The position numbers and the translations under genes were made by a program. A stretch of 64,000 bases of DNA from Dehalogenimonas sp. WBC-2 (GTDB taxonomy: Bacteria; Chloroflexota; Dehalococcoidia; Dehalococcoidales; Dehalococcoidaceae). Positions 20,460 to 34,754 of this stretch are shown one piece after another; position 1 is the stretch's first letter; every line of letters starts with the position of its first letter. Below the pieces are notes generated by a model. It saw only the letters and a list, made by a program, of their open reading frames with translations, did no database searches and was not told where the DNA came from. Location of the stretch: the NCBI GenBank assembly GCA_001005265.1, contig CP011392.1:372001-436000 (forward strand), read 5' to 3'.

Positions 20460-20622
20460 TGGTTGTTGCATACTTAAATAGGACGGAATTGCAAACAGAA
20501 TTCCCCACTATTGCAAAGGAAATTCCCCACTAATGCAAAGAGGTCATTGAAGGCGCCGGACCCAAAACAATATCCTTGTGCTGGGAAAAAACAGCTGCAA
20601 GGAGGAATGGAGGTTGCTGACA

Positions 20623-22146
20623 ATGACTGAGTTGCATGATCTCAGGAAACTATATTTCGAAGCAGGCAAGAGTATCACGGAGATTTCGCGAGAGACCGGG
20701 CGGGACCGGAAAACGGTCAGGACGTACGTGATAAAAGAGGACTGGAATGAGAAACGCCCCGAGTCCGTGGCGGGGATAGGCTTTCCCAAGCTGGACCCGT
20801 TTAAAGCTGAAATCAACGCCTGGCTGACGGAGGACAAGAGAGCTAAGCGGAAACAAAGGCATACCGCCCGGCGGGTCTATCAGAGGCTGGCAGAAAAATA
20901 CCAGGAGGACTTTACCTGCTCTTACCGCACGGTGGCCGGGTATGTCGCCAGGAGCAAGAAGGAGATCTTCGGACAGAGTGCCGGCCACTTGCCGCTGGAG
21001 CACATTCCGGGTGAGGCACAGGGGGATTTCGGTGATGCCGAATGCTACGAAAACGGGCAGCTTTGCAGCGGCAAATATCTGAATCTGTCCTTTCCCCACA
21101 GCAACAAGGGCTATTTCCAATGGTTCCGGGGAGAAAACCAGGAATGCCTGTTCGAAGGCCTGATCTCGATCTTTGCGCATATTGGAGGCGTGCCGCCGAG
21201 AATCTGGTTTGATAACACCAAGACTATTGTCACCCGGGTGTTAAAGGAAGGCGGGCGCACACTGACCGATGATTTTCTGCGCTTCAGTGAGCATTACGGC
21301 TTTGAAGCCGTCTTCTGCAATGTCGAGGCTGGTCATGAAAAAGGCAACGTGGAAAGCAAGGTCGGTTACCACCGCCGTAACTGGCTGGTGCCGGTGCCGC
21401 GCTTTGACCTGTTAGCCGATTTCAATCAGGAGCTGCTGAAGGTCTGCGACCAGGACGCCGAGAGGGATCACTACCGTAAGGATGCTACGATCGCCGAGCT
21501 TTATTCGGCCGACAAGGCCGCCCTGCTGGCTTTACCGGCCATACCGCTGGATGTCAGCAAATACACCACGGTAAGGACTAACGGCTACGGCCGCTTTTAC
21601 CTGGCCAACGGTCTGCACGAGTACTCGGTCTCTCCCCAGTATGCCAATAGCCGGGTACTCGTAAAGATCACCGCCGGCGAGGTCACGCCCCTGGATAAAA
21701 GCGGCCAGCCAATTGTGAAACACCGTAGATTGTACGGCGACACCAGGCAGCAGAGCATGCAATGGCTGCCCTACCTGACCCAGCTATCCCGCAGCCCGAA
21801 CGCCCTGAAGTACACCGGAATCTATCCGATGTTACCGGAATCGCTGAAAACCTACCTGGGCCAGTGCGGCAGGGCCGATAAAGGCAAGATATTAAGGGTG
21901 ATCGCCGCGCTCACCGAAAGGAACGGCTTTGAAGGCGCCCTCGAAACCGTGGACCACGCTCTGAGATACGCGGCCACCGATATCGACAGCCTGATCAATC
22001 TCCACAATCGGATTTACGGTCAGATCCCGGTGCCGCCGCCAATGCCTCTGGCGGGGAATATTCCCCGGCTGAGACGGGTGACCCCCGATTTGGCAGCTTA
22101 TGATGCCAGACTGGTAAAGGCGGGTGAGCTAAATGCTAACGGCTGA
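20623..22146 (+). CDS. istA: IS21-family transposase IstA
   Basis: A transposase of about 507 residues from the ATG at 20623 (GGAGG lies just upstream; a GTG at 20578 is an alternative). An N-terminal helix-turn-helix (AGKSITEISRETGRDRKTVRT) is followed by a DDE catalytic domain with acidic residues in QGDFGDAE, IWFDNTK and HEKGNVESKVG, and a C-terminal beta domain. The end overlaps istB by 14 bases, typical of this family. Confidence 0.93.
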   Translation: MTELHDLRKLYFEAGKSITEISRETGRDRKTVRTYVIKEDWNEKRPESVAGIGFPKLDPFKAEINAWLTEDKRAKRKQRHTARRVYQRLAEKYQEDFTCSYRTVAGYVARSKKEIFGQSAGHLPLEHIPGEAQGDFGDAECYENGQLCSGKYLNLSFPHSNKGYFQWFRGENQECLFEGLISIFAHIGGVPPRIWFDNTKTIVTRVLKEGGRTLTDDFLRFSEHYGFEAVFCNVEAGHEKGNVESKVGYHRRNWLVPVPRFDLLADFNQELLKVCDQDAERDHYRKDATIAELYSADKAALLALPAIPLDVSKYTTVRTNGYGRFYLANGLHEYSVSPQYANSRVLVKITAGEVTPLDKSGQPIVKHRRLYGDTRQQSMQWLPYLTQLSRSPNALKYTGIYPMLPESLKTYLGQCGRADKGKILRVIAALTERNGFEGALETVDHALRYAATDIDSLINLHNRIYGQIPVPPPMPLAGNIPRLRRVTPDLAAYDARLVKAGELNANG

Positions 22147-22858
22147 AATCGCCGCCTGCTGCAAGCAGCTTAAATTAAGCCGCAACATCGTGGAAATGGC
22201 GGACATGGTACAGGCGCCGAGCCACCAGGAGTACCTCCTGAAACTACTGAGGTCCGAGCTGGAGCACCGGGAAAGCCAGCGCAAGGATAAGTTCCTCAAG
22301 AATGCCGGGTTTTACTCTGTCAAGGATATTGGCGGCTTCCGCTTCGATGAAGTCACCTTACCCGCGGCCGTCACCCCGGAGTACCTCGGGAACTGCGAGT
22401 TCCTGAAAACCAAAACCAATCTGGTGATGTACGGCAATGTGGGCACCGGCAAGACCTATTTATCCATCGCCCTGGGCGTCGAGGCTTGTAAAAGGGGAAT
22501 ACAAACCCGGTTCTTCAGGACGGCCGCCCTGGTCAACCGGCTCTCGGAAGCCAAAAAGAATGGCAGCTTGTCTGCCTTCATGAATAAGCTTGCTAAAGCG
22601 GATCTTTTGATCTGCGACGAGTGGGGTTACGTGCCATTGGACAGGACTGGGGCCCAGCTGCTTTTTGAGGTGGTCTCCGAGTGCTACGAACGCAACACAC
22701 TGATCATCAACACCAACATCGAGTTTTCCCGTTGGGTCAACGTCTTCTACGATGAGCAGATGACCGGGGCAATTCTGGACCGGGTGCTGCACCATTGCCA
22801 TCTGCTTCTGTTCCCTGGCCAAAGCAACCGGATGCGGGAATCCGGATTGAGACAATAA
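22133..22858 (+). CDS. istB: IS21-family helper ATPase IstB
   Basis: An AAA+ ATPase of 241 residues with Walker A GNVGTGKTYL, Walker B LLICDEWGYV, sensor IINTNIEFSRW and the C-terminal QMTGAILDRVLHHCH segment that is missing in the fragment at 6228. It regulates and assists IstA. Confidence 0.93.
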   Translation: MLTAEIAACCKQLKLSRNIVEMADMVQAPSHQEYLLKLLRSELEHRESQRKDKFLKNAGFYSVKDIGGFRFDEVTLPAAVTPEYLGNCEFLKTKTNLVMYGNVGTGKTYLSIALGVEACKRGIQTRFFRTAALVNRLSEAKKNGSLSAFMNKLAKADLLICDEWGYVPLDRTGAQLLFEVVSECYERNTLIINTNIEFSRWVNVFYDEQMTGAILDRVLHHCHLLLFPGQSNRMRESGLRQ

Positions 22859-25295: not shown

Positions 25296-26864
25296 ATGGG
25301 ATACAAGGAGTTTTCAAGGGTGGAAATAATCGAAATCATACGTCGCTGGCAGGCCGGTGCCAGCGTGCGCGGCCTGGCCCGAGTATCCGGCCTATCTCGG
25401 AACACGATAAAGAAGTACATTCAATCGGCCCAGAACTGTGGTTTGACCAGCACCGGGCCGCCGCCGGATGATTCCCAGGTGATCAAGCTGGTGCAGATGA
25501 ACACCGCCGGTCGCCGCGCGGCGACCGGGTGCCCGACCGAAGAAATACTTGCTCCATGGGTGGACCAGGTGCGGCGATGGCTTCAGGAAGATCGCCTGCT
25601 GCTGACCAGGGTGCAGGAGCTGCTGAATCAAAAGGGCTGCCAGGTGGCGTATACTTCGCTCCGGCGCTTTGTGGCCAGGCACGGCTGGGGCAAAGCCAAC
25701 CAGACCACGGTGCGCATGGCGGACACCATGCCGGGAGAGGTGGCAGAGATGGACTTCGGCCGCCTGGGAATGATCTGGGATCCAGCGAGCAATCGGAAGC
25801 GACTCGTCTGGGCGCTGGTCATCGTCCTGGCTTATTCCCGCCACAGCTTTGTTTGGCCGCTGTTCCAACAGCAGCTTAGCGACGTCATCGAAGGACTGGA
25901 GGCGGGCTGGGCCTTCTTCAGAGGTCTTCCGCGATTCCTGGTGATCGACAATTTTCCGGCGGCGGTGGCCGGGCCGGATCCACTAGATCCCAAGCTCACC
26001 CGCGGTTTCCTGGAATATGCTCAGCATCGAAGTTTCTTCGCCGATCCGGCCCGGGTACGCCATCCCAAGGACAAACCCAAAGTCGAAAACGGCGTGCGCT
26101 ACGTGAGGGAGCGCTTTTTCAAAGGCGGGGATTTCCGTAGTCTCGCCGACCTGCGCGCCCAGGCCAGAGAGTGGTGCCTGAAAACCGCCGGCCAGAGAGT
26201 CCACGGTACCACCCAGCGCCTGCCGCTGGTAGTCTTCCAAGAAGAGGAGCGAGCCAAGCTGGCCACGTGGAACGACGAGCCTTACGACTTGCCTGATTGG
26301 AAAACCGTGACCGTCCATCCCGACCACCATATCACCTACAAATACTCCCTGTACTCGGCGCCGAGCGCTTCTTCCCCGCCGGGAACAAAGCTGGAAGTCA
26401 GGGGCGACAGCAAGACGGTGCGGCTCTATCGCCGCGGCGTACTGGTCAAAATCCACCCACGGCAGCCGCGTGGCGACCGCGCCACTGATCCTGATGATTA
26501 TCCGGCCGAGCTGACCGCCTACACCATGAGGTCTCCTAACCATCTGAAGCGCCAACTGGCTGATCTTGGCAACGGCGTCGGGGAGTTTGCCGACCGGTTA
26601 CTCAGTGGTCCCACGCCCTGGTCCAAGCTTCGCCAGGCACAGAAGATGCTTCGGATGGGAGAGCGCTATACCCCGGTGCGACTCGATGCCGCCTGCCGGC
26701 GGGCACTGTCCGTGGATCTCATCGATGTCCGCAGGCTTGAGCGCATCTTGATGGAAGCCCTTGAGAGTGAGCCGGAGATCCAGGTGATGGCCTCATCGCC
26801 GCCGCCGGGCCGTTTCGCCCGGCCGGGTAATGTCTTTGCCATCTGCGCCGGAGGAAACTCATGA
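25296..26864 (+). CDS. istA: IS21-family transposase IstA, second type
   Basis: A transposase of 522 residues with an N-terminal helix-turn-helix (ASVRGLARVSGLSRNTIKKY), DDE residues in VAEMDFGRLG, FLVIDNFPAAV and DKPKVENGVRYV, and a C-terminal beta region. The DNA is more GC-rich than the surrounding island genes, indicating foreign origin. Its stop overlaps the istB start by four bases. Confidence 0.93.
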   Translation: MGYKEFSRVEIIEIIRRWQAGASVRGLARVSGLSRNTIKKYIQSAQNCGLTSTGPPPDDSQVIKLVQMNTAGRRAATGCPTEEILAPWVDQVRRWLQEDRLLLTRVQELLNQKGCQVAYTSLRRFVARHGWGKANQTTVRMADTMPGEVAEMDFGRLGMIWDPASNRKRLVWALVIVLAYSRHSFVWPLFQQQLSDVIEGLEAGWAFFRGLPRFLVIDNFPAAVAGPDPLDPKLTRGFLEYAQHRSFFADPARVRHPKDKPKVENGVRYVRERFFKGGDFRSLADLRAQAREWCLKTAGQRVHGTTQRLPLVVFQEEERAKLATWNDEPYDLPDWKTVTVHPDHHITYKYSLYSAPSASSPPGTKLEVRGDSKTVRLYRRGVLVKIHPRQPRGDRATDPDDYPAELTAYTMRSPNHLKRQLADLGNGVGEFADRLLSGPTPWSKLRQAQKMLRMGERYTPVRLDAACRRALSVDLIDVRRLERILMEALESEPEIQVMASSPPPGRFARPGNVFAICAGGNS

Positions 26865-27643
26865 GCACGACAACCGAACTGACGCCGCTCTTAAAGCGAC
26901 TCAAATTGGGAGCCATGCTGCCGACGCTGCCGGAACGGCTGTCCCTGGCCCGGCGCGACCAGCTGGATCACGCCATCTTCCTGCAGATACTGCTTTCAGA
27001 CGAGGTTAACCGGCGCGACACCCGCAATCTTGAAAACCATCTCCAGAAAGCCGGATTCGAGGAGATTTGCCGGCTGCAGGACTTCAACTGGGAGAGCGGC
27101 GTCACCATCGACCGGCAACTAGTCGACACCGTCTTTTCACTCGATTTCCTTAACCGACAGGAACACGTGCTTCTGGTCGGCCCGGTCGGTGTCGGCAAGT
27201 CTTTCCTGGCCCAGGCCGTCGGCTACACCGCCGTCTGCGCTGGGCACAGTGTCCGTTTCACCCGCGCCGACAACTTCTTCCGGGATCTGGCCCAGTCGCG
27301 AGTCGATCACACGCTGGAGAAGACATTCCGCTCCTACCTGTGCCCTGACCTGCTCATCCTCGACGACTTTGGGCTGCAGAAACTGAGCGCCCAGCAATCC
27401 ACCGACCTTTACGAACTCATCGTGGCCAGGCACCGTAAATCCAGCCTGGTCATCACGAGTAATCGGGCGGTGGACGAATGGCTGGGGCTATTCGACGACC
27501 CAATCCTGGGTAACAGCGCGCTGGACCGGCTGGCTAACGCCAGCTACCAGATCGTGATTGAAGGCACCAGCTATCGGCAGAAGCAATCACCGCATCGCCG
27601 GAAAGGAGGAGGGAGATTGACGCCATTGACCCTACCCCCGTAA
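26861..27643 (+). CDS. istB: IS21-family helper ATPase IstB, second type
   Basis: A protein of 260 residues with Walker A GPVGVGKSFLAQ, Walker B LLILDDFGLQ and the sensor region LVITSNRAVDEW. The C-terminal end reads through into the nested IS3 left end at 27627, so the last five residues (TLTLPP-like) come from the IS3 rather than from the original IstB. The protein is probably still functional. Confidence 0.9.
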   Translation: MSTTTELTPLLKRLKLGAMLPTLPERLSLARRDQLDHAIFLQILLSDEVNRRDTRNLENHLQKAGFEEICRLQDFNWESGVTIDRQLVDTVFSLDFLNRQEHVLLVGPVGVGKSFLAQAVGYTAVCAGHSVRFTRADNFFRDLAQSRVDHTLEKTFRSYLCPDLLILDDFGLQKLSAQQSTDLYELIVARHRKSSLVITSNRAVDEWLGLFDDPILGNSALDRLANASYQIVIEGTSYRQKQSPHRRKGGGRLTPLTLPP

Positions 27644-27701
27644 TTAGTATCGCCGAGATGTAGAGTCCTCCGCTAAAATAAAGCGTTCAAGGAGGGCTCA
27701 A

Positions 27702-27968
27702 TTGATCAGGAAAAGGTTCACCGAAGAGCAAATCATCACCGTGCTCAAAGAGGCCGAAGCCGGGGCTAAAATCGGCGAATTGTGCCGAAAGCATGGAGTC
27801 AGTGACGCCACCTACTATAAGTGGAAAGCCAAATATGCGGGTCTTTCCGTTAGTGAGCTTAAACGGCTTAAAACTCTGGAAGATGAAAACCGCCGTCTCA
27901 AGCAGATCGTGGCCGACCAGGCGCTTGATAATTGGGCGCTTAAAGAGCTTCTCGCAAAAAACTTCTAG
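27702..27968 (+). CDS. IS3 transposase OrfA
   Basis: A protein of 88 residues with a TTG start behind AAGGAGGG. A helix-turn-helix ([36 protein letters not shown]) binds the ends, and a leucine-rich C-terminal helix mediates multimerisation. At 27956-27962 the frame runs through A-AAA-AAC just before its stop, a canonical -1 slippery site that would produce the OrfAB fusion transposase. Confidence 0.93.
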
Positions 27969-27991
27969 AGCCCAAGGTCAGGCGGGAGGCG

Positions 27992-28816
27992 GTGGAGTTT
28001 GCCAGGGGGAATCTTGGGCTCAGTGAAAGAAGAGCTTGTCTGCTTGTCGGTATTTCACCATCGGCCTACCGTTACAAGCCAAAACTAGACGATGATATTG
28101 CCTTGCGCCATCGTCTACGGGATCTGGCCGGACAGCGGAAGCGCTTTGGCAGCCCGCGGCTCCACATCATGCTTAAACGGGAGGGGCTGGTGGTCAATCA
28201 CAAGCGGACCGAGCGGATCTACAAGGAAGAAGGATTGGCGTTAAGGAGGAAGCGCAAACGTAAAGGCACAGCCGTTAATCGGATCATCTTGCCGCTGCCC
28301 GATAGACCTAACCAGAGGTGGAGCATGGACTTCGTCTCTGATTCCACCGTGACCGGGAGGCGTTTCAGGACACTGACCATTGTGGATAACTTCACCAGAG
28401 AATGCCCGGCGATTGAAGTGGATACATCTATCGGCGGCGCCAGGGTGGTGAGCGTTCTGGAAAGGTTGGCTGAGATTCGAGGCTTGCCCGAGGTCATCAC
28501 GATCGATAACGGACCTGAGTTTGCCGGCCGGGCACTTGATGAATGGGCTTATCGGAGGGGTGTAAAACTGAATTTTATACGTCCGGGCAAACCGATAGAA
28601 AACGCCTTCGCCGAGAGCTTTAACGGTAGATTCAGGGATGAATGTCTGAATGAAAACTGGTTCATGAGCTTGAAAGAAGCCCGGGAAATCATCGAGGAAT
28701 GGAGGATTGATTATAACGAGGTCAGGCCACACACTTCATTGAAAGGTCAAACACCGCAGGAGTATGCTGAGGCTAGTTCTGGACTCTACTCCGGAATGCT
28801 ACTAAAGGTGGGGTAA
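27992..28816 (+). CDS. IS3 transposase OrfB (rve integrase core)
   Basis: The frame encodes 274 residues of the DDE integrase-type transposase with motifs [18 protein letters not shown] and a final Glu in [18 protein letters not shown]. Translation as a separate protein from the GTG is doubtful. The real product is most likely the OrfAB fusion made by -1 frameshifting 30 bases upstream, since the shifted frame ([18 protein letters not shown]) enters this ORF without a stop. Confidence 0.93.
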
Positions 28817-28918
28817 GGTCACCATGACCTAACGATGATACAACAACGGCGCCATCAGGGTGGGTCAATGATAGTGGCGACGGGTGGATCAATGGTGGTG
28901 GTTTTTCACAGAGATTCA

Positions 28919-29175: not shown

Positions 29176-30153
29176 TTATATCCGTTTATTCCTCACTAGT
29201 CTGAGATAATGCTCGCCCAATATAGTTAGCTTGCATGTTTTGCTATTCATTGCTGCATGCCACATATGCGGGGCATTAACCGGAACAACGAGGTTCACTC
29301 GGTTGTATTTCTGCAGAATCGCAAATTTAGCAGTGTTTGTCGGGTTCGGTTCCGGTATTCCAGAAGTGTCGCCCGCGCGCTCGGGCTCAAATGATGGGTC
29401 AAGATGGAATTCAAATCCCGGAGAGGGGAAAAACTCAGTAATACGTTGAAGGTCCTCTAAGGCAATAGGAGGTTGGACTTTACGTAAAGATACGAAGGTT
29501 TTCACATTTGTTTTGAATATTGGTCGCTGATCCCAGGGACCGAGAGACTGATCGATATGAGCATAAACGCTCCCGGGTGTTACGTCACCGACCAAGTTGC
29601 ATGCCGCTCCATTTAAGCCATCCACCAGAAGGGCCGTGAAAACGCCAGATCCATTTATTTCGTTCGCGTATTGATCTTCGGTAGATGCGGTAAGGATCGT
29701 AGTGCCTAGCGTGAGTTCTGAATTGGTTGGATCATTCGGGGCAGATCCAGCGATTCCAGAGTGGCAACTATCCAGTATGATTATTCTGTTTTTTGCTTTT
29801 GATCCATTAGCATAGGTCAGAACATCCTGCAAAGGAACACCTTCATCTCCCGACCTTGAATCGCTAGCAAGAATGTATCCGCCGGTGACTTCGATGTGGC
29901 CATGACCAGCGAAATAGAAAAGTGCGATCTCGCTATCATCGGTGAATAGCTCCCTAATCTGCTGTCTCAATTCCGAACGCACTACTTTATCTATCGGTCC
30001 GTTTGCTACCAACAGCTTAACCCCAAAGTTTACGGCGCCATCGCTATTTCTCTCAAGTACGTTTTGCACTTTATAAGCGTCGTTGACACAGCCTGTTAAG
30101 GGTGGACCAAACTCGTAGTAGTTGATTCCAACCACAAGTGCCTTTCGCATCAT
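29176..30153 (-). CDS. Caspase-like protease of a TIR-caspase defence operon
   Basis: A protein of 325 residues. Residues 1-225 are a caspase/metacaspase fold with the catalytic His in [10 protein letters not shown] and the catalytic Cys in [10 protein letters not shown], after an N-terminal strand [16 protein letters not shown]. Residues 235-325 form a separate C-terminal domain ([44 protein letters not shown]), possibly the ligand-binding or regulatory module. In type IV Thoeris a TIR protein makes N7-cADPR, which switches on a caspase-like protease that kills the infected cell. This gene is the last of the operon and fits that effector role. Confidence 0.88.
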
Positions 30154-30164
30154 AGCTATCCCCT

Positions 30165-30548
30165 TTAATCGAACTTTCCCTCACGTTTCAATAAGTGTTT
30201 AAGGTTTTTCCATTTCCAAACAATAACCTCACCAGCTCCGTCTACCGGAATCGGCATATGACCCTGTTTTCTCAGCTGGAATCTTGTTTTATTGAGTTGC
30301 CTTGCCATTTTGGCCTCACGAAGAACGCCAGAACATTTATGGGTATTTTCACCTAGTAGGACCAAAAAAACATCACAACTTTCTATGTATTCTCTGGCTT
30401 TTTGCTGCCAATCAACGACTGTTTCTTTAAGAGAGACATCGTTTATTGAAAAGGGTGAGTCAGGAAGTTTAGATTGGCCAATTACTGTTTCTTTTAAAGG
30501 AGCGTCATAATCAAAATCATAGCTGACAAACACTTTGGTTTTTGCCAC
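30165..30548 (-). CDS. TIR-like domain protein (ThsB-type), second
   Basis: A protein of 127 residues that is all TIR-like fold of the DUF1863/ThsB group: first strand and loop [20 protein letters not shown], then [34 protein letters not shown], and a helix with the candidate catalytic Glu, [13 protein letters not shown]. The GTG start has AAGGA upstream. It lies 11 bases before the caspase gene and 25 bases after the first TIR gene. The presence of two distinct TIR proteins suggests one enzyme and one sensor, or a heteromer. Confidence 0.78.
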
Positions 30549-30573: not shown

Positions 30574-31086
30574 CTAATGTTGTTGTTTTTTCGCCCTTAC
30601 AGTATTGATTGCTTCAACAATAGAATCCTTATTCCAACCAACTATAATATCTGCATTTTCTTGTAGGATTGTTGGGATGACTTCACTCCCCCAAGGTTTG
30701 ACGGCAACAATTGGCTTGCCTAATTGTTTTGATAGCTCAATCTCCTTTTGAATGCTGCCGCTATATGTAACGTACATTCCCGCTGGGATCAAAACTACTG
30801 TGGCATGGTAAATTTGATCTTTGAGCCCTTCTTCTAATTGCTTGGCGGTGTCGGCATCGATTGCGTCTTCCCTGGGTATGCTATAGTCTTTAAATTCGAA
30901 ATCTTCCGTATCCTTTAATAAGGCTAACAGCCTTTGATATTCTCCCTCATGGTCCCAAGAGTGGGGCACAAAAAGATTGCAAGTCTTGTCTAAACTGTTT
31001 AACTTTTCAAGTCGCTTTTTTGCTAATTCTTCTAATTCATTGGAATCTGAAATGCCCCCAGTATATCCACCACCTCCCCCTCCCAT
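30574..31086 (-). CDS. TIR-like protein with a poly-glycine N-terminus
   Basis: A protein of 170 residues. It begins with Met and six Gly (MGGGGGGYTGG), then a short helix, then a ThsB-like TIR domain (NLFVPHSWDHEGEYQRLL, ATVVLIPAGMYVTY, candidate catalytic Glu in SIQKEIELSKQLGKPIVAV). The ATG at 31086 overlaps the QueC-like stop as TGATG and has AAGGAG eight bases upstream. The longer frame from 31188 lies inside the previous gene and is rejected. An exposed glycine N-terminus made immediately after a QueC-like enzyme suggests it is the acceptor of a 7-deazaguanine group. That modification is inference. Confidence 0.82.
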   Translation of the reverse strand: MGGGGGGYTGGISDSNELEELAKKRLEKLNSLDKTCNLFVPHSWDHEGEYQRLLALLKDTEDFEFKDYSIPREDAIDADTAKQLEEGLKDQIYHATVVLIPAGMYVTYSGSIQKEIELSKQLGKPIVAVKPWGSEVIPTILQENADIIVGWNKDSIVEAINTVRAKKQQH

Positions 31087-31715
31087 CAAAGCGCTCCTTG
31101 GTTTTCTTTGTTCAATGATTGCATGGCCGATATCCTCTCTTTGCAAGAAATGCAAATTCCACAAGGCTTCTCCGTTCCAGCATGACAAGAATATACCTGC
31201 GAAATATCAACTCCTTTCTGTTTAGCCAATACAATTACATCCGCCTTAGAAAAATCGAAAAGTGGTACCAACACCTTAATATCTAACCCTAGCGCAAGCT
31301 TAAGCGTTGTTTCTGTAGAATCAAGAAAATTCTGCTTTTGGTCTGGGAATAACGCGAATCTTTGACTCAACAGTCCAATAGATACAAATGAACCGCCAGA
31401 TTGAACCGCTGCAGCAGCAGCCATGATTAAAAACACTAGGTTTCGACAAGGTAAAAAAGCATCTTCGGCAAGCCTTTTTTTCGTATTGGTGATCCCTGAC
31501 GCGATAAACTTTCCATATCCATTAATATCTAACCTTTCAGGTTTAGGTAATGACAGTCGTGAAAAGTTGGCTTGGCAGCTTTCCCATTCTTTCTCGACCG
31601 CCAATTGTCCATAGTCGATAAATAGGGGGGTCTGACCGAAGCCTTGTTCGTTCAATAAAACAGTCATTAATGTAGAATCCAAGCCCCCTGAGACCAACGT
31701 TATACCCTTAATCAC
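31086..31715 (-). CDS. QueC-like enzyme (Cap9-type) in a defence operon
   Basis: A protein of 209 residues of the QueC family, ATP-dependent enzymes that amidate 7-carboxy-7-deazaguanine and then form preQ0. The PP-loop VSGGLDSTL, the FLPCRNLVFL segment and the zinc site SCHAGTEKPCGICISCKER are present, so it should be able to adenylate the carboxylate. There are no queD, queE or folE genes nearby, so it must use host precursor. It sits between an OGG-like gene and a poly-glycine TIR gene, the ancillary order known from type IV CBASS rather than from queuosine operons. The start is GTG with GGAGG upstream. Confidence 0.85.
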   Translation of the reverse strand: MIKGITLVSGGLDSTLMTVLLNEQGFGQTPLFIDYGQLAVEKEWESCQANFSRLSLPKPERLDINGYGKFIASGITNTKKRLAEDAFLPCRNLVFLIMAAAAAVQSGGSFVSIGLLSQRFALFPDQKQNFLDSTETTLKLALGLDIKVLVPLFDFSKADVIVLAKQKGVDISQVYSCHAGTEKPCGICISCKERISAMQSLNKENQGAL

Positions 31716-31731
31716 CTCAATACACCTCCGG

Positions 31732-32442
31732 TCAGCTAACTTCAGAGACTCTCATAACTGCCCAAATTGCTAAGTCTAAGTGAGCAGGGCGAATTCCAAC
31801 CGTCTGAGAGTACTTAACAAACGTTTTTTCCATCTGCAAATATTGACGTTTGTCCTTTGGAGATTTACTAATATTTGAAACCAACCCCTTTATTTGCAAG
31901 AACTTTAAAATGTGGGAATCAATAATAGCTAGACTATGGGAATAACCAATGTTACGTAGAAACAAACTCGCTTGTTTTGGCCCAATCCCTGAACACAGAT
32001 TTACTAATTTTGTCCTGGCATCATAATCGTCTGTTGCATTGTTTAAATTAACTTTCAGTGAACCGCCTTGAGTATAAATCGCAATTGCAGACTTAATAAT
32101 TTGGCCAGTCTTTGTTTTTGGAAAACGAAACTTACACCCTGATCCTTTTGCAGTCATAGGCTCGTAAATGGATTTTGAAAGCTCACCCACTATGATCTTT
32201 TCTGCATCAGGTTGTTTAACCAAGAATTTTGAACATATATATCCTAAAGAATAAAGATGTTTCCAGGCAGAAGTAGCGTGTTCCCATCTAACGTGGCTCG
32301 CAAGAATGCATTTAACGAGCTCAGCCCAGATTTCTTCTTCCGAAAGGTTATGCCATTTTCCTAGATCACAGAAATAGTTCTTGGTTTCCTCGGATATATC
32401 CCATGCAACTCTTTCTAGCCTTTCGATACTAGTGTGGATCAT
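31732..32442 (-). CDS. OGG-like HhH-GPD glycosylase (type IV CBASS ancillary type)
   Basis: A protein of 236 residues with a helix-hairpin-helix GPD core at 145-185: LCSGIGPKQASLFLRNIGY followed by the catalytic-Asp region LAIIDSHILKFL. The Lys in GPKQA occupies the lyase position of Ogg enzymes. No iron-sulfur Cys are seen. OGG-like proteins are one of the three ancillary proteins of type IV CBASS with QueC- and TGT-like partners; their substrate there is not established to my knowledge. The gene lies between the TGT-like and QueC-like genes with gaps of 8 and 16 bases. Confidence 0.8.
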   Translation of the reverse strand: MIHTSIERLERVAWDISEETKNYFCDLGKWHNLSEEEIWAELVKCILASHVRWEHATSAWKHLYSLGYICSKFLVKQPDAEKIIVGELSKSIYEPMTAKGSGCKFRFPKTKTGQIIKSAIAIYTQGGSLKVNLNNATDDYDARTKLVNLCSGIGPKQASLFLRNIGYSHSLAIIDSHILKFLQIKGLVSNISKSPKDKRQYLQMEKTFVKYSQTVGIRPAHLDLAIWAVMRVSEVS

Positions 32443-32450
32443 CGTTCCGT

Positions 32451-33171
32451 TTATATCCTAATTCTTTCGAGCAATTTCGTTGGAAAATAGTTTGTTAGCA
32501 TATCTCCGACTGAACCTGTATTAATAGAGGATTGGATTTTTTGCATCCAGTCGATGTAGAACAATAAATTATGTCCGAGAGTCACAGCACTATAGGAACC
32601 TGATGTATTACACGCCGCACACTCACAACCAGTGAGTTCACGCTGGGAAAAGTGTAGTAGTGTACCGTCTCGTTGGTCGACCGCAGTTTGACACCATTCT
32701 AATCCGTCAAAAGATATCGCACCACAGGCCGCATACAGCAAAATTGACCTTGGGTTGCCGGTACCCAACAAGTGGATGCCATGTTTGAGCCCTTCTCCTT
32801 CAATATTTTTTACAATGGAACATAATGTCGTTGCTCGTTGAACGATCCCATCCCCTAATTCTCTTTCTGCAACTGCAATTAGAGGAGTATCCTTGTAACT
32901 CTGGGCAGCTGCTAATACTTGTTTTGGTAGGTTCGTGGGGTTGCCGTGGACGATTGGTAAGCAATTTGGGATGTTAAGATCTAACGAACCATTGCCTCCT
33001 GTATGGGACCAAGGATTATCAAAAGCCAAAGTCAAATCCGGTTTGATTTGAGAGACCGCTTTCTCAAACGTTTTTAGGTCCCAATCCCTATCACGAAGCC
33101 AAAATGCCTCGTAATTTCCACTATCCAATAATAAGACAGATTGGTCGCTACGTTGGGTTACAGGTATGGAT
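32451..33171 (-). pseudogene. TGT-like (Cap10-type) enzyme, C-terminal part, cut off by IS3
   Basis: The frame encodes the C-terminal three quarters of a tRNA-guanine-transglycosylase-like protein: the active-site Asp region LLLDSGNYEAFW, LPIVHGNP, the segment GIHLLGTGNPRSILLYAAC, and the zinc site CECAAC with the later LGHNLLFYIDW His. The IS3 copy at 33172 removed its start. In front of the insertion the frame SIPVTQRSDQSVL joins exactly to HSWE at the end of the N-terminal part (34367-34606), sharing the duplicated GGAT. An internal TTG at 33128 could restart a fragment lacking the N-terminus. Confidence 0.85.
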
Positions 33172-33176
33172 TGACC

Positions 33177-34001
33177 TTACCCCACCTTTAGTAGCATTCC
33201 GGAGTAGAGTCCAGAACCTGCCTTAGCATACTCCTGTGGTGTTTGACCTTTCAATGAAGTGTGTGGCCTGACCTCATTATAGTCAATCCTCCAATCCTCG
33301 ATTATTTCGCGGGCTTGTTTTAAGCTCATGAACCAATTCTCATTAAGACATTCGTCCCTGAATCTGCCATTAAAGCTCTCAGCGAATGCATTTTCTATCG
33401 GTTTGCCCGGCCTTATGAAATTGAGTTTTACGCCCCGCCGGTAAGCCCATTCATCAAGCGCCCGGCCAGCGAACTCTGGTCCATTATCGATGGTGATGAC
33501 CTCGGGTAGGCCTCGAATCTCAGACAATCTTTCCAGGACGCTTACCACCCTGGCACCGCCAAGAGAGGTATCCACTTCGATTGCCGGGCATTCTCTGGAG
33601 TAGTCATCGACGATGGTCAGTGTCCTGAAGCGCCTTCCAGTAACGATGGAATCAGAAACGAAGTCCATGCTCCATCTCTGGTTAGGTCTATCGGGCAGCG
33701 GCAAAATGATGCGATTAACGGCAGTGCCTTTGCGCTTGCGCTTTCTTCTTAAAGCCAATCCCTCTTCTTTGTAGATACGCTCAGTCCTCTTGTGATTGAC
33801 CACCAGCCCTTCTCTTTTAAGCATGATGTGGAGCCGCGGACTGCCGAAGCGCTTTCGCTGTCCAGCCAGATCCCGTAAACGTTGGCGCAAGGCTAAATCA
33901 TCGTCTGGTTTTGGCTTGTAGCGATAGGCCGATGGTGAAATACCAACAAGCAGACAAGCTCTTCTCTCACTGAGCCCAAGATTCTCCCTGGCAAACTCCA
34001 C
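33177..34001 (-). CDS. IS3 transposase OrfB, copy B
   Basis: A frame of 274 residues nearly identical to the one at 27992, with the same DDE motifs ([29 protein letters not shown]). It is expressed as part of an OrfAB fusion by -1 frameshifting. A handful of substitutions (for example DDYSRE for DNFTRE) show that the two copies have been separate for some time. Confidence 0.93.
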
Positions 34002-34024
34002 CGTCTCCCGTCTGACCTTGGGCT

Positions 34025-34291
34025 CTAGAAGTTTTTTGCGAGAAGCTCTTTAAGCGCCCAATTATCAAGCGCCTGGTCGGCCACGATCTGCTTCAAACGG
34101 CGATTTTCTTCTTCTAGGGTTTTAAGCCGTTTGAGCTCGCTGACCGAAAGCCCCGCATATTTGGCTTTCCACTTGTAGTAGGTAGCGTCACTGACTCCGT
34201 GCTTACGGCACAGCTCGCCGATTTTAGCCCCGGCTTCGGCTTCCTTGAGCACCGTAATGATTTGTTCTTCTGTAAACCTTTTCCTGATCAA
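34025..34291 (-). CDS. IS3 transposase OrfA, copy B
   Basis: A protein of 88 residues differing from copy A by a single visible residue (LEEENRR for LEDENRR). It has the helix-turn-helix and ends at the same A6C slippery run. The TTG start sits behind AAGGAGGG. Confidence 0.93.
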
Positions 34292-34366
34292 TTGAGCCCT
34301 CCTTGAACGCTTTATTTTAGCGGAGGACTCTACTTCTCGGCGATACTAATTAAGGGGGGAGGGTCA

Positions 34367-34606
34367 GGATTCCCACGAATGGATAAAGTCATATGCTGAC
34401 AACAGAAAGTTTGGATAGCCAAATTTATTAATGAATTGGAAATAATCTCTTGGAGGGAAATTAGTTTTTATACTCGAAATTGACGCGAAAAAACATGGGA
34501 ACATGAGTTTTCCGTTGGCCAGAAGGATCGATCTTGTTTTACTGGTGCCGCCTATTTCGAGCATAAGCCCTTCATATTCGGACCGTTGACGCCTCGATAA
34601 TAACAT
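34367..34606 (-). pseudogene. TGT-like enzyme, N-terminal part, truncated by IS3
   Basis: Eighty codons from ATG at 34606, or more likely from the ATG fourteen codons in (MLEIGGTSKTRSILLANG). The protein end HSWES is where the IS3 sits. The reading frame continues at 33171 when the insertion is removed, giving an original gene of about 320 codons. It was the first gene of the defence operon. Confidence 0.8.
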
Positions 34607-34754
34607 AATTGCCTGGCTGTTAATAGGTCCGAAACCAAGTCCCTTGTGATCTGCCGATTTTTGGTAAAAAGTGACGCGCTTTGTTTTTACGAGTCGAAGG
34701 GATAAAATCCTTGTAGTTTAATAAATGCTAGATCCGTGTGAAGGAAGTTGATTT

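Follow-up and report, generated by a model that had tools for sequence, protein, structure and literature searches.

The stretch analysed here (the window) is 64,000 nucleotides of the Dehalogenimonas sp. WBC-2 genome (CP011392.1, positions 372,001 to 436,000), and it carries on its minus strand an operon in which a gene for a QueC-like enzyme is directly followed by a gene for a TIR domain protein. The gene order is TGT-like (interrupted), OGG/HhH glycosylase-like, QueC, TIR, a small weakly TIR-like gene, and a caspase. QueC, TGT, and OGG together form the ancillary set of type IV CBASS (cyclic oligonucleotide-based antiphage signaling system). We scanned the six operon open reading frames (ORFs) and three neighboring ORFs and found no CD-NTase (cGAS/DncV-like nucleotidyltransferase); the TIR protein occupies the CD-NTase place in this ancillary gene set. 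The initial annotation had described a TIR protein that starts with Met and six Gly, with its ATG overlapping the QueC-like stop codon as TGATG, and both can be read directly: the minus-strand ORF opens with MGGGGGGYTGGISDSNELEELAKKRL (MGGGGGGYTGG), and at 31088-31084 the QueC TGA (31088-31086) runs into the TIR ATG (31086-31084). The features of the operon are as follows, all on the minus strand.

34367 to 34717, minus strand: detached 5' portion of the TGT-like gene (approximate ends), whose frame ...FLLSAYDFIHSW matches ...LLVSAWDLVDRR of the relatives
33172 to 34366, minus strand: insertion sequence (IS) of IS3 type inside the TGT-like gene, with ends TGACC...GGTCA and a GGAT target duplication
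32451 to 33171, minus strand: 3' part of the TGT-like (Cap10-like) gene beyond the insertion (PADLOC TGT, 1e-14)
31732 to 32442, minus strand: OGG/HhH DNA-glycosylase-like protein, 236 residues (PF22175, 2.7e-28), its position kept in all relatives
31086 to 31715, minus strand: QueC-like (Cap9-like) putative ATP-dependent ligase, 209 residues, GTG start (PF06508, E = 4e-35)
30574 to 31086, minus strand: TIR protein, proposed QueC substrate, 170 residues (ThsB_TIR PF08937, E = 8e-12, residues 42-134)
31048 to 31086, minus strand: predicted disordered TIR tail MGGGGGGYTGGIS, residues 1-13 (Gly2/Gly3 conservation; predicted local distance difference test score, pLDDT, < 50)
30991 to 31044, minus strand: TIR linker helix NELEELAKKRL..., residues 15-32, helical in the model and common to QueC-linked TIRs
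30165 to 30548, minus strand: small weak TIR/ThsB-like protein, 127 residues (TIR_2 and ThsB_TIR, both at E of about 0.01 only)
29176 to 30153, minus strand: caspase-family (C14) protease, putative effector, 325 residues (PF00656, 6e-15)

QueC proteins about 49% identical to that of the window are encoded on Rhizobiaceae plasmids, where the order is TIR-TGT fusion, OGG, QueC, TIR. Using the C-terminal half of the window QueC as query against one genome per species, we obtained 24 loci, 23 of which fell inside the window QueC clade; L072 (Kiritimatiellaeota, 31%) lay outside it and was left uncounted. The clade loci come from Pseudomonas, Brenneria, Bradyrhizobium, Ruegeria, Catenovulum, Pseudoalteromonas, Halomonas, Saccharospirillum, Methylotenera, Desulfuromonadales, and others, and all 23 carry TGT-like, OGG, QueC, and TIR genes in the same order. 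With four plasmid representatives, this yielded 27 relatives, or 28 loci including the window. In 28/28 loci, the TIR directly after QueC begins Met/Val-Gly-Gly (one start codon is GTG, the remaining starts are Met); next come a tail rich in Gly and Ser (over residues 2-10, 54% Gly and 25% Ser, window included) and a helix of the pattern LE(E/Q)KAKxxL. There are 16 distinct tails, among them MGGSSTGGW, MGGNSGGGG, and MGGDGGGGW. The expectation that TIR homologues next to QueC would share glycine-rich starts thus held for Gly2 and Gly3, which are invariant, but not for polyglycine itself; as read from these alignments, what is conserved is MGG with a Gly/Ser tail and a short helix behind it, not the run of six glycines. 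All four Gly codons are used at both positions across the 28 TIRs (17/5/4/2 at Gly2 and 13/6/5/4 at Gly3), so the constraint acts on the protein. No QueC-linked homologue lacking an N-terminal glycine was found among the 27 further loci. At some loci there are further in-frame starts upstream within QueC, and we chose the MGG start because it is located at the QueC stop; at L058, L063, L066, L067, L068, L069, and L070, no other start precedes it in the examined stretch.

The tail was found only in company with QueC. None of the 13 QueC-less TIR relatives with a readable start carries an MGG tail, in agreement with what the initial annotation had expected; 12 have no Gly at position 2 and one, an unannotated ORF, begins MGRSS. 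The TIR of Thiolapillus brandeum, for example, is 46% identical to the window TIR over the TIR domain and stands beside a caspase 68% identical to that of the window; it starts MPKLKNYRLF and has no adjacent QueC. Likewise, Klebsiella plasmid TIRs with TRAFs-binding and DUF4231 neighbors have neither QueC nor tail. In the plasmid collection, TIR matches that span 80% or more of the Neorhizobium TIR occur in 13 records, and exactly these 13 also hold a window-clade QueC; the other plasmid TIR matches listed align only from residue 31-34 on, past the tail. When the QueC-linked TIRs are set aside, an MGG start occurs in only 2 of the 448 long ORFs of the loci read. No MGG start was found in other genes of the same operons, namely 22 TIR-TGT fusions (MADIY-like), 23 OGG proteins, 12 DUF4231 proteins, and 8 TIR2 proteins, several of which (TIR2) begin MG.

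We next consider the enzymes. Among solved structures, Cap9 in the Cap9-CdnD complex (9nto) matched the window QueC best, both by sequence (2e-14 vs 1e-11 for canonical QueC) and by fold (QueC model mean pLDDT of 89.9). Its score against the canonical-QueC NCBIfam equivalog (108.9 bits) is below the cut-off of 150.3, and the YPDC motif of canonical QueC reads FPDQ. With the functional roles of Cap9 residues taken from PMC13279940 and PMC13329287, we found that the SGGLDS loop, the PxRN loop, the base-edge-reading Asp of Cap9, and the YSCxxG..CGxCxxC zinc motif are kept, and that the stacking position is likewise aromatic (Phe in the window QueC, Tyr in Cap9). Since the ATP loop, the Asp that reads the base, and the zinc site are all preserved, the QueC looks catalytic. 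The family profile of the TGT-like proteins had Cap10 (9ntn) as its best solved-structure match. For the TIR protein, the model has a TIR-like fold (mean pLDDT of 76.7) with low confidence at residues 1-13 and a helix at residues 15-32; Glu115 and the linker helix residues L18, E19, A22, K23, and L26 are invariant in the family alignment. A fold search ranked nucleotide N-glycosidases above TIRs, and since these two folds are alike, the ranking was not used to name the function of the TIR protein.

In the QueC tree, the QueCs of TIR systems formed a single clade (support 99/99), with a QueC from a Hahellaceae metagenome-assembled genome closest to that of the window (95/97) and Cap9 on the TIR-system side, apart from the main canonical group (96/79). 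Two sequences considered as canonical QueC, L038 and L039, both grouped away from canonical QueC. The TIR tree was arranged differently: the window TIR domain grouped with QueC-less TIRs (100/99), apart from the other MGG TIRs, and all QueC-linked TIRs were joined in 0% of bootstrap trees. A single clade of QueC-linked TIRs was not rejected by the approximately unbiased test (p = 0.118), and the tree has long branches that make the exact position of the window TIR unsure; the QueC-linked loci perhaps hold two TIR lineages. The window linker helix resembles those of L054 (reached by 7 of 5000 shuffles) and L061 (4 of 5000), with weaker similarity to others. Together, the tree placement and the helix similarity suggest grafting of the tail: the tail and helix would travel with the cassette and would have been joined to a second TIR lineage.

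In Neorhizobium, a PfkB-type kinase gene lies upstream and SLATT/DUF4231 and ThsB-type TIR genes adjoin the operon (Pfam); similar genes are near many other clade loci. When viral contigs were scanned with the family alignment as query, the whole system (PfkB, TIR-TGT, OGG, QueC, and MGG-TIR) was recovered on one IMG/VR contig (L094:3059-10197), adjoined by DUF4231, TIR2, and a TRAFs-binding-like gene, so the system can travel on mobile or proviral DNA. Scans of viral contigs with the window TIR or QueC singly gave no relative, and QueC matches in sequenced phages were about 28-31% identical, none of them of the window clade. No other member of the clade was found in a 400-genome sample of Chloroflexota, where the best other matches were 28-39% identical and the same-genus genomes in the sample had none at 1e-15. 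The window operon itself sits in a region dense in mobile elements. A second IS3-type copy at 27627-28821, 90% identical to that at 33172-34366 and in opposite orientation, has its own CCAT duplication; the two copies bracket the operon, and going by their distinct target duplications (CCAT vs GGAT), they look like separate insertions and not a simple composite transposon. Two IS21-like pairs of transposase and ATPase lie upstream (20578-22858 and 25296-27643). In a same-family genome, a tail-less, QueC-less TIR (L007:1396-1836) abuts a closely similar IS3-type transposase, which seems to have cut the TIR C-terminus.

According to PMC13279940 and PMC11996544, the CD-NTase of type IV CBASS starts MGGS, and Cap9 forms an N-terminal 7-amido-7-deazaguanine there; the partner thus accepts the base at its N-terminal Gly in type IV CBASS, and in Qat the N-terminal Gly of the partner is essential (PMC13279940). 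The initial annotation had referred to reports of QueC-type deazaguanylation of N-termini in both systems, which is right for type IV CBASS (Cap9); for Qat (QatC/QatB), it has been proposed, not reconstituted. We consider it probable, from the gene content and sequences, that the window operon is a TIR-based defense-signaling module with a deazaguanylation cassette. By analogy with Cap9 and the CD-NTase, QueC most likely joins 7-carboxy-7-deazaguanine (CDG) to Gly2 of the TIR protein; we infer this from the Cap9 homology and the co-occurring tail, and comparison likewise supports the earlier suggestion that the terminal Gly of the TIR is the acceptor. Methionine aminopeptidase would expose Gly2 of the disordered MGG tail, the Cap9-like QueC would adenylate CDG using ATP, and the exposed Gly2 amine would attack the activated CDG, leaving an N-terminal 7-amido-7-deazaguanine on the TIR. 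Going by Cap10, the Cap10-like TGT may bind the modified tail and, together with the OGG-like protein, hold or license the TIR; that the OGG-like protein removes or recognizes the base is our guess. On infection, the TIR would make an NAD-derived signal, as in Thoeris, that activates an effector, which would be the caspase in the window and perhaps SLATT membrane proteins in relatives.

Several points weigh against this interpretation. The 28 loci are related, so the number of independent events behind them is far below 28. At the stacking position, the window QueC has Phe where Cap9 has Tyr, and the Cys that follows is replaced by Gln. In the window genome (G000), the TGT-like gene is interrupted, and no convincing candidate for QueE, the source of CDG, was found. 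This genome has QueD and an ordinary tRNA TGT (C1:46745-47095 and C1:194154-195212) and no canonical QueC; the only other QueC-family match is a 359-residue protein resembling a tRNA thiouridylase-type ATP pyrophosphatase. Because of the interrupted TGT gene and the lack of a QueE candidate, the window copy may be inactive or may rely on salvage, and the family-level case does not depend on it.

Other explanations account for parts of these observations. One possibility is that the product of QueC is a free 7-deazaguanine (amide or nitrile), which the TGT-like protein would insert in tRNA or DNA and the OGG-like protein would cut out again, with the TIR only sensing or executing and its tail a flexible linker. 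QueC, TGT, and the glycosylase are nucleic-acid-modifying families by ancestry, and pathways for 7-deazaguanines in DNA are known from phages and bacteria (PMC6884629); however, the nearest relatives of the QueC and TGT proteins here are Cap9 and Cap10, whose target is a protein, and a free base leaves the invariance of Gly2 and Gly3 solely in TIRs that follow QueC unexplained, so we regard this as unlikely. Slightly less likely again is a non-covalent role in which the tail docks QueC or TGT and QueC is a scaffold or acts on another acceptor. Docking alone would give the co-occurrence of tail and helix with the cassette, but the QueC looks catalytic, with ATP loop, base-reading Asp, and zinc site, and the constraint is strictest at residues 2-3, where it would be expected for an acceptor. 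Finally, six consecutive GGN codons can arise by slippage, and the longest run is that of the window, so the glycines might be a functionless product of chance or slippage at the overlapping start codon. Codon diversity and the low background frequency argue strongly the other way: Gly2-Gly3 is found in 28/28 TIRs with all four codons at each position, compared to a background of 2/448, and at the family level we reject a chance or slippage origin, which we consider extremely improbable.

Two other types of QueC operon were observed. In one, a small protein gene is followed by PfkB/deoxyribosyltransferase, QueC, and HhH genes (L018:4289-7279, L019:2650-6297, and L083:2293-5274), and this first small protein begins MGSTGSG or MGSSGSG; this type is possibly a further N-terminal conjugation system. 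In a related type, the order is OGG, small protein, PfkB, and QueC (L078:4821-8385, L080:4851-7856, L081:4734-7689, L082:4743-7873, and L079:4803-9538), and the small protein has Ser after Met (MSGSG, MSGGGGG, or MSSGD). The latter seems to be QueC cluster 4 of PMC13329287, read there as purine salvage. It is conceivable, though we would put it somewhat short of an even chance, that the MGG tail and helix together are a transferable tag that accepts conjugated nucleobases. On this view, the tag would have been added to a separate TIR lineage in the window and would be used across unrelated immune signaling enzymes (CD-NTase, TIR, QatB, and possibly the small MGSTGSG/MSGSG partners of PfkB-QueC), such that 7-deazaguanine status gates several signaling pathways. 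If the QueC-linked TIRs are modified as proposed, deazaguanylation would not be peculiar to CBASS and would be a wider control of bacterial immune signaling. A conjugated nucleobase could then govern TIR enzymes, a family with relatives at work in plant and animal immunity, and the queuosine-precursor pathway would be tied to TIR signaling. The intact homologues from Pseudomonas, Catenovulum, Rhizobium, and others are a compact set for asking what the modification does, a question common to Qat, and a Cap9-like QueC directly before an M-G-G partner gives a sequence rule for finding further systems.

We found no QueC-TIR system in literature on Thoeris, TIR, or TGT with QueC, a scope outside which lies the body of the type IV CBASS Science article, which may mention TIR neighbors; the Qat paper (PMC13279940) and a 2026 survey of the QueC family (PMC13329287) mention neither TIR nor Thoeris. 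With that reservation, the QueC-TIR pairing appears undescribed; N-terminal deazaguanylation itself is known from type IV CBASS. Compared to canonical QueC (preQ0 synthase), the window enzyme has the same fold, SGGxDS loop, PxRN loop, and zinc cysteines, but QueCs of its clade are always beside TGT-like, OGG, and TIR genes. As in Qat (QatB/QatC, PMC13279940), a QueC-family enzyme adjoins a partner protein whose MG start is disordered, but the window QueC is short (209 residues) and keeps the base-reading Asp missing in QatC; the operon domain hits include no match to QatA, QatB, or QatD and a weak one to QatC (2.5e-4). The system resembles type IV CBASS (Wassarman et al. 2025, PMC11996544) in having a Cap9-like QueC, a Cap10-like TGT, and OGG in a single operon, and also in that an MGG-start signaling enzyme adjoins the Cap9-like QueC (here a TIR, 28/28). 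It differs in that this enzyme is a TIR and not a CD-NTase, that the putative effector is a caspase (window) or probably SLATT, and that the TGT frequently carries an additional fused TIR domain. Type IV Thoeris, as far as PMC12847820 relates it (citing Rousset 2025), uses an N7-cyclic ADP-ribose (N7-cADPR) signal and a caspase-like protease effector, and the window caspase fits this type for that reason. The window operon shares with it a ThsB-like TIR and a caspase-family protease in the same operon and, relative to the same account, adds the QueC/TGT/OGG cassette, the MGG tail, and a second small TIR-like gene.
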